Part shown: in pieces, positions 8,469 through 42,009 of the stretch
Layout of the letters: each line of letters starts with the position of its first letter
Numbering within the stretch: position 1 is the stretch's first letter
DNA from: an uncultured Oscillospiraceae bacterium
GTDB lineage: Bacteria > Bacillota > Clostridia > Oscillospirales > Oscillospiraceae
Reading direction: 5' to 3'
Assembly (NCBI GenBank): GCA_946546815.1
Contig: CAMNOL010000009.1
Span: 1 to 42,009 of the forward strand
DNA: 42,009 nt
Position numbers and translations under genes: made by a program
The notes under the pieces: generated by a model
The model's database searches: none
What the model saw: only the letters and a program-made list of their open reading frames with translations
Told to the model about the DNA's origin: nothing

Positions 8469-9296
8469 TCAGCTGCCTTTTGCCCGGTTTGGCCGGATGA
8501 CAAGCTGATAGAACAGGATGCCCAAGGTGATGACCACGCACAGCAGCGCCACCAGCTGGGACACCCGGATTCCGGTGTGGAACAGGTACAGGCTGTCCGT
8601 CCGCAGTCCCTCGATCCAGAACCGCCCCAGGCCGTACCACAGCAGGTAGCAGCAGAACAGCATACCGTTGAACTTCCGGCGGTTTCTGAGGACGAAAAAC
8701 AGCAGCGCCAGCCCCACCAGGTTCCACAGAGACTCGTACAGGAAGGTGGGGTGGACCTCCACCTGGGTTCCATTGCTGAGGGTCAGCCCCATGCGCCAGG
8801 GCAGGGTGGTGACGCCGCCGTAGGCCTCCTGGTTGACGAAATTGCCCCATCTGCCCAGGGCCTGGCCGATGAGCAGACCGAAGGAATAGGCGTCCACCAG
8901 GGTGAGAAAGTCCAGCTTTCTGATCTTGCAGTAGACAAACGCCGTGGTAATGGAGCCAATGATGCCGCCGTAAATGGCGATTCCGCCGTCCCAGATGGCG
9001 ATGGCCTCCCTCCAGTTGAAGCTGCCGTCCGGATTGGTGTACAGGTCTAAGTAGAACAGAACGTAGTAGATCCGGGCGCAGACGATGCCCATGGGAGCGG
9101 CGTAGAGCAGCACGTCCAGGGCGTCGTCCTCTCGTCCGCCGAAGCGGACGTACTGTTTGCAGGCGCAGGAGGTGCCGAGCAGAAACCCCAGCGCGATGAT
9201 GATTCCGTACCAGTAGATGTCCTTTCCCGCGATGGAAAATGCCACGCGGTCTATGTGAAAGGTCAGCCCCAGTCCGGGAAAGGTGATTGGGTTCAT
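8469..9296 (-). CDS. lgt: Prolipoprotein diacylglyceryl transferase
   Basis: Lgt motifs GGIAIYGGIIG, RWGNFVNQEAYGG, HPTFLYESLWNL. Confidence 0.95.
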   Translation of the reverse strand: MNPITFPGLGLTFHIDRVAFSIAGKDIYWYGIIIALGFLLGTSCACKQYVRFGGREDDALDVLLYAAPMGIVCARIYYVLFYLDLYTNPDGSFNWREAIAIWDGGIAIYGGIIGSITTAFVYCKIRKLDFLTLVDAYSFGLLIGQALGRWGNFVNQEAYGGVTTLPWRMGLTLSNGTQVEVHPTFLYESLWNLVGLALLFFVLRNRRKFNGMLFCCYLLWYGLGRFWIEGLRTDSLYLFHTGIRVSQLVALLCVVITLGILFYQLVIRPNRAKGS

Positions 9297-9329
9297 GATA
9301 ACGAATGGTCCTTTCGACTAATGTTCCAG

Positions 9330-9490
9330 GGAAGCGCTGATTAAATCTCTCGGATGGCTGGACGAGGATATTTTTCGTTCAGATAGTGGCCAAATTCCGC
9401 AGGAATCCTGACGGATTTCAAGGAATTAGGACGCTATATGGCGGAAAATAGACCGTCCAGACGCCGTAGCTTGATTGAATCAGTGGTTCC
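9330..9490. mobile_element. MITE-like element copy 1 (161 bp)
   Basis: Imperfect TIRs GGAAGCGCTGATTAAATC...GATTGAATCAGTGGTTCC; flanked by 4-bp direct repeat CCAG (9326-9329 and 9491-9494); its right end is identical (inverted) to 41955-42009. Confidence 0.8.
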
Positions 9491-10751
9491 CCAGGGGCAG
9501 GATTTTCGATACCGCCATGCGCTCCCGGGTGACGACCCGGTCCAGAAATGCCTCTGCATCCGTCTTTGTGATGCCCTCGTACAGCTCCGGGAACCGGTAG
9601 TAATGATAGCCGTGGAAGTGAGCGCGGGCCAGCTGGACGCAGCAGTGCTCAAAGGAGTTCAGCGCCCGGATCCGGCTGCCGTAGCAGGCCTTCAGGCACC
9701 GCCGGAACCGGTCCTCCGGCAGACCCTCTCTGCGAATCCGCTGGCCCTCTTCCAAAATTTCCGCTGTGACCGCATCAGGGTCCGGGCTGTCTCCGCCAAA
9801 GAGCAGAAAGGCGGTGCCGGACTGATCCTCATAGGACACGCCAAAGCTCTGGTTGATGAGTCCTTTTTCATACAGCCTCTGATACAGCGGGCTGGACGTT
9901 CCGCACAGCAGGTCGCCGGCCACGTCGCCAATGAGCCGCTGCATCTGGTCCCCGGGAGCGCTAGGCTCCGCCTTAAAGGCGGACAAAAAGGTGGGCGCGG
10001 ACACCGGCATAGTCTCGATCTGCTCTGCCCGGGCTGCCTCCATTGCCTCTGGCGCCCCGTGGTCCTTTTCCACTGCGGGGCCCTTGACGGGGGAGACCAC
10101 CATGCGGGCCACCGCCATCACCCGCTCCGGGTCCACGTCGCCGGTGACGCACAGCACCATGTTTTCCGGGCGGTAGAAGGCCCGGTGGCAGTCGTACAGG
10201 GTCTCAGCGGTGATGTGGGAGATGGACTCCGCACTCCCCGCCACTGGCACGCGGACGGGGTGGTGGTCGTAGAGGGCCTGGAGCAGGTTGCTGTACACCC
10301 GCCACTGGGGCCGGTCCGACACCATCTGAATCTCCTGTCCGATGATGCCCTGCTCCTTGGCCACGGATTCCGGGGTGAAATACGGCGTGGTGACAAAGGA
10401 CAGCAGCGTCCGCAGGTTGGAGTAAAAGTGCTCCGTGCACTCAAAATGGTAGGCCGTCATGGAGGAGCTGGTGAAGGCGTTGGGGAAGGCTCCGCCGGCG
10501 GAGAGAATCTGCAGCGCGTTGCCCTGGGGCAGGTCGAACATCTTATGCTCTAAGTAGTGGGCGACGCCTGGGGGGGTCTCCCGGAGCTGACCGTCCAAAC
10601 GGTAGCGGAAGTCCATTCCGCCGTAATTCACCGCCAGAAAGGCGTAAGCCTTCTGATAACCGGGGCGGAGGGTGACGTAAACGCTCAGTCCGTTTTCCAG
10701 CCTTTCATAACAGCAGGTTTCGTTCAGACGGGGAAACTGTGTGATTTTCAT
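9480..10751 (-). CDS. yfmH: M16 family metallopeptidase, YfmH-like (EF-P 5-aminopentanol modification-associated)
   Basis: Inverted zinc motif HYLEH; insulinase-like fold; overlaps and follows the YfmF-like gene. Confidence 0.88.
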   Translation of the reverse strand: MKITQFPRLNETCCYERLENGLSVYVTLRPGYQKAYAFLAVNYGGMDFRYRLDGQLRETPPGVAHYLEHKMFDLPQGNALQILSAGGAFPNAFTSSSMTAYHFECTEHFYSNLRTLLSFVTTPYFTPESVAKEQGIIGQEIQMVSDRPQWRVYSNLLQALYDHHPVRVPVAGSAESISHITAETLYDCHRAFYRPENMVLCVTGDVDPERVMAVARMVVSPVKGPAVEKDHGAPEAMEAARAEQIETMPVSAPTFLSAFKAEPSAPGDQMQRLIGDVAGDLLCGTSSPLYQRLYEKGLINQSFGVSYEDQSGTAFLLFGGDSPDPDAVTAEILEEGQRIRREGLPEDRFRRCLKACYGSRIRALNSFEHCCVQLARAHFHGYHYYRFPELYEGITKTDAEAFLDRVVTRERMAVSKILPLGNH

Positions 10752-12040
10752 TGGGTTTCCTCCTCCTTTTCCGGACTTTGCAGGGTGTAAATGCTGTCCA
10801 GCGTCACCCGGCTCAGCGCCCGGAGCACCTGCTCCCGGGTGACGGAGTCCAGCGCCTGGGCCAGCTCCTCTGGGGAGATGCGCAGCTCCGCCATGGCCTG
10901 ATGGAGCCAGTAATCGACCTGCAGGGGCTGGCTGTCGGGGATGCGGCGGTATTGGTTCGCTGTGTACTGCCGGGCGGCCTGGAGCTCCTCGTCAGAGAAG
11001 GCGCCTTCCCGGAGCTGCTCCAGCTGGCTGAGGATCTCCTCCCGGGCCAGCGGAAAGTCCTTTGGCTCCAGTCCGGCCTGGACCAGCATCAGGCCCTTGT
11101 GCCGGTCCAGCACAGAGCTGACGGAATAGCAAAGGGACCGCTTTTCCCGGACGTTGAGAAACAGCCGGGAGGTGGGGGCGCCGCCCAACAGGGCGTTGGC
11201 CACCACCAGCGCGGGGTAGCGGGGACTGTTCAGCCCGCAGCCGGTGCGCAGTCCCATCACCAGCCGCCCCTGGTGCACCTCCATGCGCTCGGAGAACTCC
11301 CGGACCTTTTTGGGCTGTACCAGCCAGTCTGTGTGGGGCTCCAGAATGTCCCGCTGGCGGGGCAGGTCCATCAGCGCCTCCCGCCAGGCCTGCTCCACCC
11401 GCAGGGGGGAGGCGGAGCCGGCATAGTACACCTCCACCCGGGCGGTGGAGAGGAGTTTATGATAATGCTGGTTCAGCCGGGCCACGCTGAGCTTTTTTGC
11501 CTCCCGGAGGGTGCCGTAGCGCCCCACCCGGTAGGCCTCTCCCACGCACATTTTTCCGATGGCCTGCTGCAGGGCATAATAGGCCTTGTCGTTGACGGTG
11601 CGCTGAATGTCCCGGATGAGGTTCTGCTTTTCGCTTTCCACATAGTCGCTGCGCAGCCGCCCATTCCGGGTGGCGGGGCGCAGCAGCAGGTCTCCCAGCA
11701 GGTGGGCAGCCCGGTCCAGCACTTCTGTGCCCTCCGGCACCAGCTCGTCATCCAGAAAGGCGGCGGAGAAGCCCACGCACTGAACCTCGCCCCGCTTGGA
11801 GACAGTGGCCTCAATGACGCCGCCGTAGAGCTCGTCCAGCGCGGCGGCCAGGGACTGCTGGTCCGGGTTGTCGGCGGTGCCCCGACGGAGCACTCTGGGC
11901 AGCAGCGCATTCAGGGCGGCGTTTTTTTCCTCCAGCGGAAGGGCAAGACCCAGGTACCACTGGCTGCTTTTGAACTTATTCGTCTGAATACAGGTGAGGG
12001 AAACCCCCGGCATCAGGCTGGTGCGGAACATCTCCTGCAT
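10748..12040 (-). CDS. yfmF: M16-like protein, YfmF-like (EF-P 5-aminopentanol modification-associated; no HxxEH)
   Basis: NALLGGAPTSRLFLNVREKRSLCYSVSS typical of M16 proteins; no HxxEH; stop/start overlap with the YfmH-like gene. Confidence 0.87.
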   Translation of the reverse strand: MQEMFRTSLMPGVSLTCIQTNKFKSSQWYLGLALPLEEKNAALNALLPRVLRRGTADNPDQQSLAAALDELYGGVIEATVSKRGEVQCVGFSAAFLDDELVPEGTEVLDRAAHLLGDLLLRPATRNGRLRSDYVESEKQNLIRDIQRTVNDKAYYALQQAIGKMCVGEAYRVGRYGTLREAKKLSVARLNQHYHKLLSTARVEVYYAGSASPLRVEQAWREALMDLPRQRDILEPHTDWLVQPKKVREFSERMEVHQGRLVMGLRTGCGLNSPRYPALVVANALLGGAPTSRLFLNVREKRSLCYSVSSVLDRHKGLMLVQAGLEPKDFPLAREEILSQLEQLREGAFSDEELQAARQYTANQYRRIPDSQPLQVDYWLHQAMAELRISPEELAQALDSVTREQVLRALSRVTLDSIYTLQSPEKEEETQ

Positions 12041-41538: not shown

Positions 41539-41949
41539 ATGGGAACCAATCATCCGATCAATGAAGTCATCGGCACCACGATGAACAAGGTGCGGGAGAT
41601 GGTGGACGCCAACACCGTCGTCGGCGAACCCATCCACACCCCTGAGGGCGTGACCATCATCCCGGTGTCCAGGATCAGCTTCGGCTTCGGCTCCGGCGGC
41701 AGCGACTTCAACGCCAAAAAGGAGTCCGCGCCAAAGAACTTCGGCGGCGGCGCGGCGGCGGGCGTCAACGTGGACCCCATCGCCTTTCTGATCGTCCGGA
41801 AGGACACGGTGCGCCTGCTGCCCTGCACCCCCGGTCCCTACGGCCCGGTGGATAAGCTCATCGACTTTATGCCCGACATTGTGGACCGGGTGAGCAATTT
41901 TGTGGACAGCCGCAAGTCCGGCAAGGACGAGGGCCCAGAGGAAGCGTAA
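41539..41949 (+). CDS. ytfJ: GerW family sporulation protein (YtfJ)
   Basis: VVGEPIHTPEGVTIIPVSRISFGFGSGGSDF; GGGAAAGVNVDPIAFLIV. Confidence 0.94.
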   Translation: MGTNHPINEVIGTTMNKVREMVDANTVVGEPIHTPEGVTIIPVSRISFGFGSGGSDFNAKKESAPKNFGGGAAAGVNVDPIAFLIVRKDTVRLLPCTPGPYGPVDKLIDFMPDIVDRVSNFVDSRKSGKDEGPEEA

Positions 41950-41955
41950 CCCATG

Positions 41956-42009
41956 GGAACCACTGATTCAATCAAGCTACGGCGTCTGGACGGTCTATTT
42001 TCCGCCATA
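41956..42009. mobile_element. MITE-like element copy 2 (truncated by window end)
   Basis: 41955-42009 is a 55/55 match to the reverse complement of 9437-9491. Confidence 0.85.

Follow-up and report, generated by a model that had tools for sequence, protein, structure and literature searches.

Where does yfmH, a peptidase gene in the window, obtain its last codons and its stop? By the window we mean the whole stretch of DNA analysed here, 42,009 nucleotides in length, in which a repeat lies directly at the 3' end of this gene. The original prediction was that the repeat had supplied the final Asn-His and the stop codon, that the insertion had rewritten the C-terminus, and that the end of the element could act as a portable stop in one frame.

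The gene and the element at its 3' end

The yfmH product scores 388 bits on the YfmH_fam profile (NF047421), whose cut-off is 250 bits; residues 5-419 are aligned with positions 2-423 of the 425 in the profile, and the Pfam domains PF00675 and PF05193 are also found. The same kind of profile search places yfmF (NF047422) at 10748-12040, adjoining yfmH on its upstream side and running in the same direction. The full-length match above the curated cut-off and the adjacent yfmF together identify the product as YfmH, the M16 protein associated with EF-P modification, and the insertion described below leaves that view unchanged.

On the gene strand, yfmH ends AAA ATC CTG CCC CTG GGG AAC CAC TGA, as the original prediction had read it, with the TGA where it had been placed. 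The features involved are listed in Table 1. The ends of the repeat were set by comparing the termini of many copies. Copy 1 has the properties of a MITE: it is short, its TIRs are identical at 15 of 18 positions, its 4-bp duplication is perfect, it has dispersed copies, and with 161 bp it is too short to contain a transposase gene. The TIR at the yfmH end is not a chance resemblance, because six more full-length copies, 90-95% identical, occur in the same genome, and because perfect 4-bp duplications flank 58 of the 105 copies in the genus that are complete and non-redundant.

Table 1. Features at the yfmH-lgt junction and at the contig edge (window coordinates)
Feature	Position	Strand	Basis or remark
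yfmH, M16-type peptidase gene, 423 aa, ends ILPLGNH-stop	9480..10751	-	NF047421, PF00675, PF05193
yfmH TGA stop codon, inside TIR	9480..9482	-	sequence
Gly-Asn-His, last three sense codons of yfmH	9483..9491	-	9483-9490 from element, 9491 from host duplication
MITE copy 1, 161 bp, non-autonomous IS5-type element	9330..9490	-	TIRs and duplications of many copies; own-genome and genus copies
Target-site duplication, yfmH side (CCAG on +, CTGG on gene strand)	9491..9494	.	identical to 9326-9329
Target-site duplication, lgt side (CCAG on +, CTGG on gene strand)	9326..9329	.	identical to 9491-9494
TIR, yfmH side, GGAACCACTGATTCAATC	9473..9490	-	15/18 positions same as other TIR
TIR, lgt side, GGAAGCGCTGATTAAATC	9330..9347	+	sequence
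Former yfmH stop TAG, left 3' of element as a relic	9318..9320	-	rejoined flanks read ILPLEH-stop
Presumed Shine-Dalgarno sequence of lgt (GAAAGGA), retained downstream of element	9309..9315	-	sequence; function inferred
lgt, prolipoprotein diacylglyceryl transferase, next gene, same direction	8469..9296	-	TIGR00544, 196.6 bits (cut-off 118.9 bits)
MITE copy 2, first 54 bp, ended by contig edge	41956..42009	+	own-genome copies; duplication would be CATG at 41952-41955

The extent of the element and the two CTGG duplications fix the boundary, which the frame crosses as CTG G/GG AAC CAC TGA (the slash marks the junction). The Leu codon belongs to the host, and the Gly codon GGG (9489-9491) consists of one host base and two element bases. 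Asn, His and the stop do come from the TIR, with one refinement to the original prediction: the element gives Gly (two bases)-Asn-His-stop, not Asn-His-stop alone.

The state before insertion

Removing the MITE and one duplication in silico rejoins the flanks around a single CTGG and yields ATC CTG CCC CTG GAA CAT TAG, or ...ILPLEH-stop, followed by TCGAAAGGACCATTCGTTATC and then by the ATG of lgt. This TAG is the relic stop, now five bases past the lgt-side duplication. The CTGG target spans CTG, the third sense codon from the end, plus the opening G of GAA, the codon after it. With the empty site reconstructed in this way from the duplication, the tail of yfmH would have changed from ...ILPLEH-stop to ...ILPLGNH-stop, Glu-His being replaced by Gly-Asn-His with a gain of one residue.

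A comparison with orthologues was suggested along with the original prediction, and the same ending in an orthologue without the element would have counted against it; none of the 108 YfmH orthologues compared ends in GNH. Their tails past the conserved block are 0-12 residues long and show little conservation. One could suppose that GNH-TGA is native to yfmH, that the element was inserted downstream of the stop and that the likeness to a TIR is coincidental; a tail of four residues past the conserved block is indeed of normal length (12 of 109 sequences). However, copies at unrelated sites have GGAACCACTGATT as their TIR, the duplication sets the boundary upstream of the stop, and the ending is missing from every orthologue, which leaves this supposition scarcely credible.

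The reading that we prefer is that a 161-bp MITE derived from the IS5 family was inserted at CTGG near the end of yfmH, in the yfmH-lgt pair, and duplicated that site. A ribosome would then meet the TGA of the family TIR in the resulting frame, so that Gly-Asn-His-stop would replace Glu-His-stop. On the sequence data, it is almost certain that such an insertion duplicated CTGG and that yfmH takes its stop from the TIR; the change is presumably tolerated.

As to a rewritten C-terminus, residues and stop have been replaced, as claimed, but the change is not a substantive one: two residues have become three in an unconserved tail of 0-12 residues, and because orthologue tails are so short and variable the phrase overstates the effect. 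The YfmH profile alignment reaches residue 419 of 423, within two positions of the profile end. Since the last residues of YfmH are not conserved and lgt keeps an intact ribosome-binding site, the insertion appears to be of an ordinary, tolerated kind, presumably with no phenotype.

Integrity of the junction

In many relatives, an lgt-like start lies directly 3' of yfmH. Because both duplications match and the yfmH-lgt order is conserved in relatives, a misjoin of the contig at copy 1 is very unlikely. The location of copy 2 at the contig end suggests that the assembler breaks at MITE repeats.

Two further observations concern these sites. Copy 2 begins a few bases past the stop of a ytfJ/gerW-like gene (window 41938-42009), and many contigs of the same genome terminate inside element copies. 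Just 3' of yfmH in another species (locus L038, genome G014) there is a seemingly different small repeat (GGGCGGCACCGCACAATTAAGGC...), apparently an independent insertion at the same junction.

The element family and its autonomous relative

The genome of origin (1.86 Mb) contains about 30 copies of the MITE, whole or partial. Within the genus, 21 of 31 other genomes have matches as well, which together with the genome of the window makes 22 of 32. The duplications are mostly CTAA/TTAG, TTAA and CTAG, that is, YTAR; CTGG is a minority type, seen three times among the 105 copies. It is one base off YTAR, yet perfect CTGG duplications are also present in genomes G003 and G028.

An autonomous relative is found in genome G012 (locus L273, 386-1595). 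This element is 1210 bp long, has a TTAG duplication and the ends GGAACCGCTGATT and GGAACCACTGATT, and codes for an IS5-family transposase (NF033581, 308 bits, cut-off 140 bits; PF01609 and PF05598). The genome of the window has only a decayed transposase fragment of the IS5 kind, located between similar ends. The shared ends suggest that an IS5-type transposase mobilises the MITE in trans.

The family has several variants. A second repeat family, with ends of about GGTAAC(A/T)CCGCA(T/C)AATGG, has the inner core of the window element (query ~30-138) at 72-82% identity, as though two sets of termini had been attached to a single core; members include L017 (G000:C6:12672-12779), L020 (G000:C13:21212-21316), L031 (G000:C11:27577-27682) and others. 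A longer MITE subtype carries an insert of ~70 bp (GGTTCAAGGTGTGCATCTGATCGA...CTGATTCCGG) in its interior, located at much the same place in several copies (G000:C7:36436-36661, G000:C126:1253-1484, G000:C134:1638-1883 and G000:C108:47-105).

Retention of the element as a regulator of lgt or yfmH, for example with an RNA hairpin serving as an RNase III site or an attenuator, is another possibility to consider. The RNA of copy 1 is predicted to form a stable fold (-50.8 kcal/mol, z -4.4), and other bacterial MITEs are known to influence the mRNA of adjacent genes (review PMC2229807). The palindromic layout already accounts for such a fold, however, and promoter, terminator and Rfam scans of the element returned no match, so we consider a regulatory role unlikely.

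The TIR as a stop for other genes

A genome-wide count of genes ending in the TIR had also been proposed. In the genome of the window, yfmH (...LGNH-stop) and two gene-like ORFs stop at this TGA: a 147-aa ORF (...LGNH-stop) and a lipoprotein-like gene (...QGKD-stop). For the 147-aa ORF the rejoined flanks read ...LAQ-stop, the two duplicated sites differ at one base, and no family match was obtained. The same TGA ends rsfS (...LGNH-stop) in G002 and a glycosyltransferase gene (...LLRKH-stop) in G018. The idea of a portable stop in one frame is thereby borne out, with at least two further ORFs in the same genome and rsfS in a relative ending at this TGA. Genes resembling mnmG, a kinase gene and ytfJ, names read from the sequence rather than from profile hits, end 9-22 bases before an element in the same genome.

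Among the 105 copies, 43 element ends are faced by a candidate gene. At nine of these ends the target site closes with the native stop, TAA or TAG, and at 21 the gene stops further upstream; six candidates stop at the TIR TGA, four of which are trusted, and antisense frames account for several of the others. Family-wide, a native stop inside the YTAR target is thus commoner at gene ends than the TIR TGA.

Loci at which a gene seemed to end in the TIR but which look like artefacts of antisense frames, long in a genome so rich in GC, were excluded from the count of TIR stops: L143, L160, L177, L263, L161, L207 (left), L213 (right), L208 and L251. L153 (genome G004) was also rejected as a gene end. 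That copy interrupts a cellobiose phosphorylase-like gene, whose protein ends ...GRADWNDCLKLRNL-stop; it looks like a truncating, disruptive insertion.

Target sites and gene ends

For 327 genes from the genus, YTAR sites were located on the stop codon itself (51), in the ~40 bases downstream (79) or in the last codons (18). The last coding positions hardly ever contain YTAR, but the stop codon lies inside it in 16% of the genes, so the YTAR preference alone steers insertions onto native stop codons. Native stops make up 39% of the YTAR sites at and just after gene ends. Insertions do not hit stop codons more often than expected: 9 of 30 fall exactly there, against the 39% expected from YTAR positions in the 327 genes, while inside the last codons about 12% are expected and about 12% seen (4 of 34), a comparison that rests on small numbers.

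These counts bear on whether selection has favoured the TIR TGA as a safe exit by which host genes suffer less damage. CTGA is found in nearly all TIRs of the family copies, and the five genes described above (yfmH, the 147-aa ORF, the lipoprotein-like gene, rsfS and the glycosyltransferase gene), entered near their 3' ends, do use the TGA. Nevertheless, the TIRs of the autonomous IS carry CTGA too, where transposase binding is sufficient reason for it, and so its presence needs no translational explanation. In addition, the numbers of stops in the duplication and in the TIR agree with where YTAR sites lie around gene ends, and YTAR already bars one frame inside genes, because TAR would be a stop. 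Selection for a safe exit is therefore very improbable.

A broader proposal would treat the family ends as frame-specific exits, with TGA-frame insertions retained and the others landed by YTAR on a native TAA or TAG, such that the family is adapted to gene ends and does almost no damage; this too we doubt, if slightly less strongly. Target preference plus tolerance would account for both the native stops and the TIR stops, and the 105 copies show no sign of more. Since native stops form a large share of the YTAR sites at gene ends in this one IS5-type family, such elements often abut genes without breaking them. The titles and abstracts retrieved in a literature search held nothing specific on YTAR targets and stop codons.

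Comparison with known systems

The window element resembles the IS5 family (NF033581 group) in having the same ends, a 4-bp duplication of the YTAR type and a complete relative with transposase in the genus; it differs from an IS of that family in being only 161 bp long and lacking a transposase gene. In Coxiella burnetii, QMITE1 and QMITE2 overlap annotated gene 3' ends by 1-50 bp (recN by 7 bp, ruvB by 6 bp and ogt by 8 bp), and in one case a QMITE supplies the last 33 residues of EnhC (PMC5896051). The window MITE is like these elements in overlapping a gene 3' end, although the element family and the host are different. The stop of EnhC is located just past the QMITE, whereas that of yfmH is inside the TIR, with only about three residues contributed. 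In enterobacteria, RU-1/ERIC repeats can remove the normal stop and supply a new C-terminus and stop, as in the Erwinia amidase ECA3499 (Delihas 2007, PMC2759123). There, too, a MITE-like repeat provides the new C-terminus and stop, but RU-1 adds about 35 residues to ECA3499, whereas in yfmH two residues are exchanged for three. Gene 3' ends overlapped by MITEs have thus already been described in Coxiella, and yfmH is a further instance with another element family and a very small effect. Its value is as a clean, fully resolved example in which the end of a MITE takes over translation termination with minimal change to the protein.
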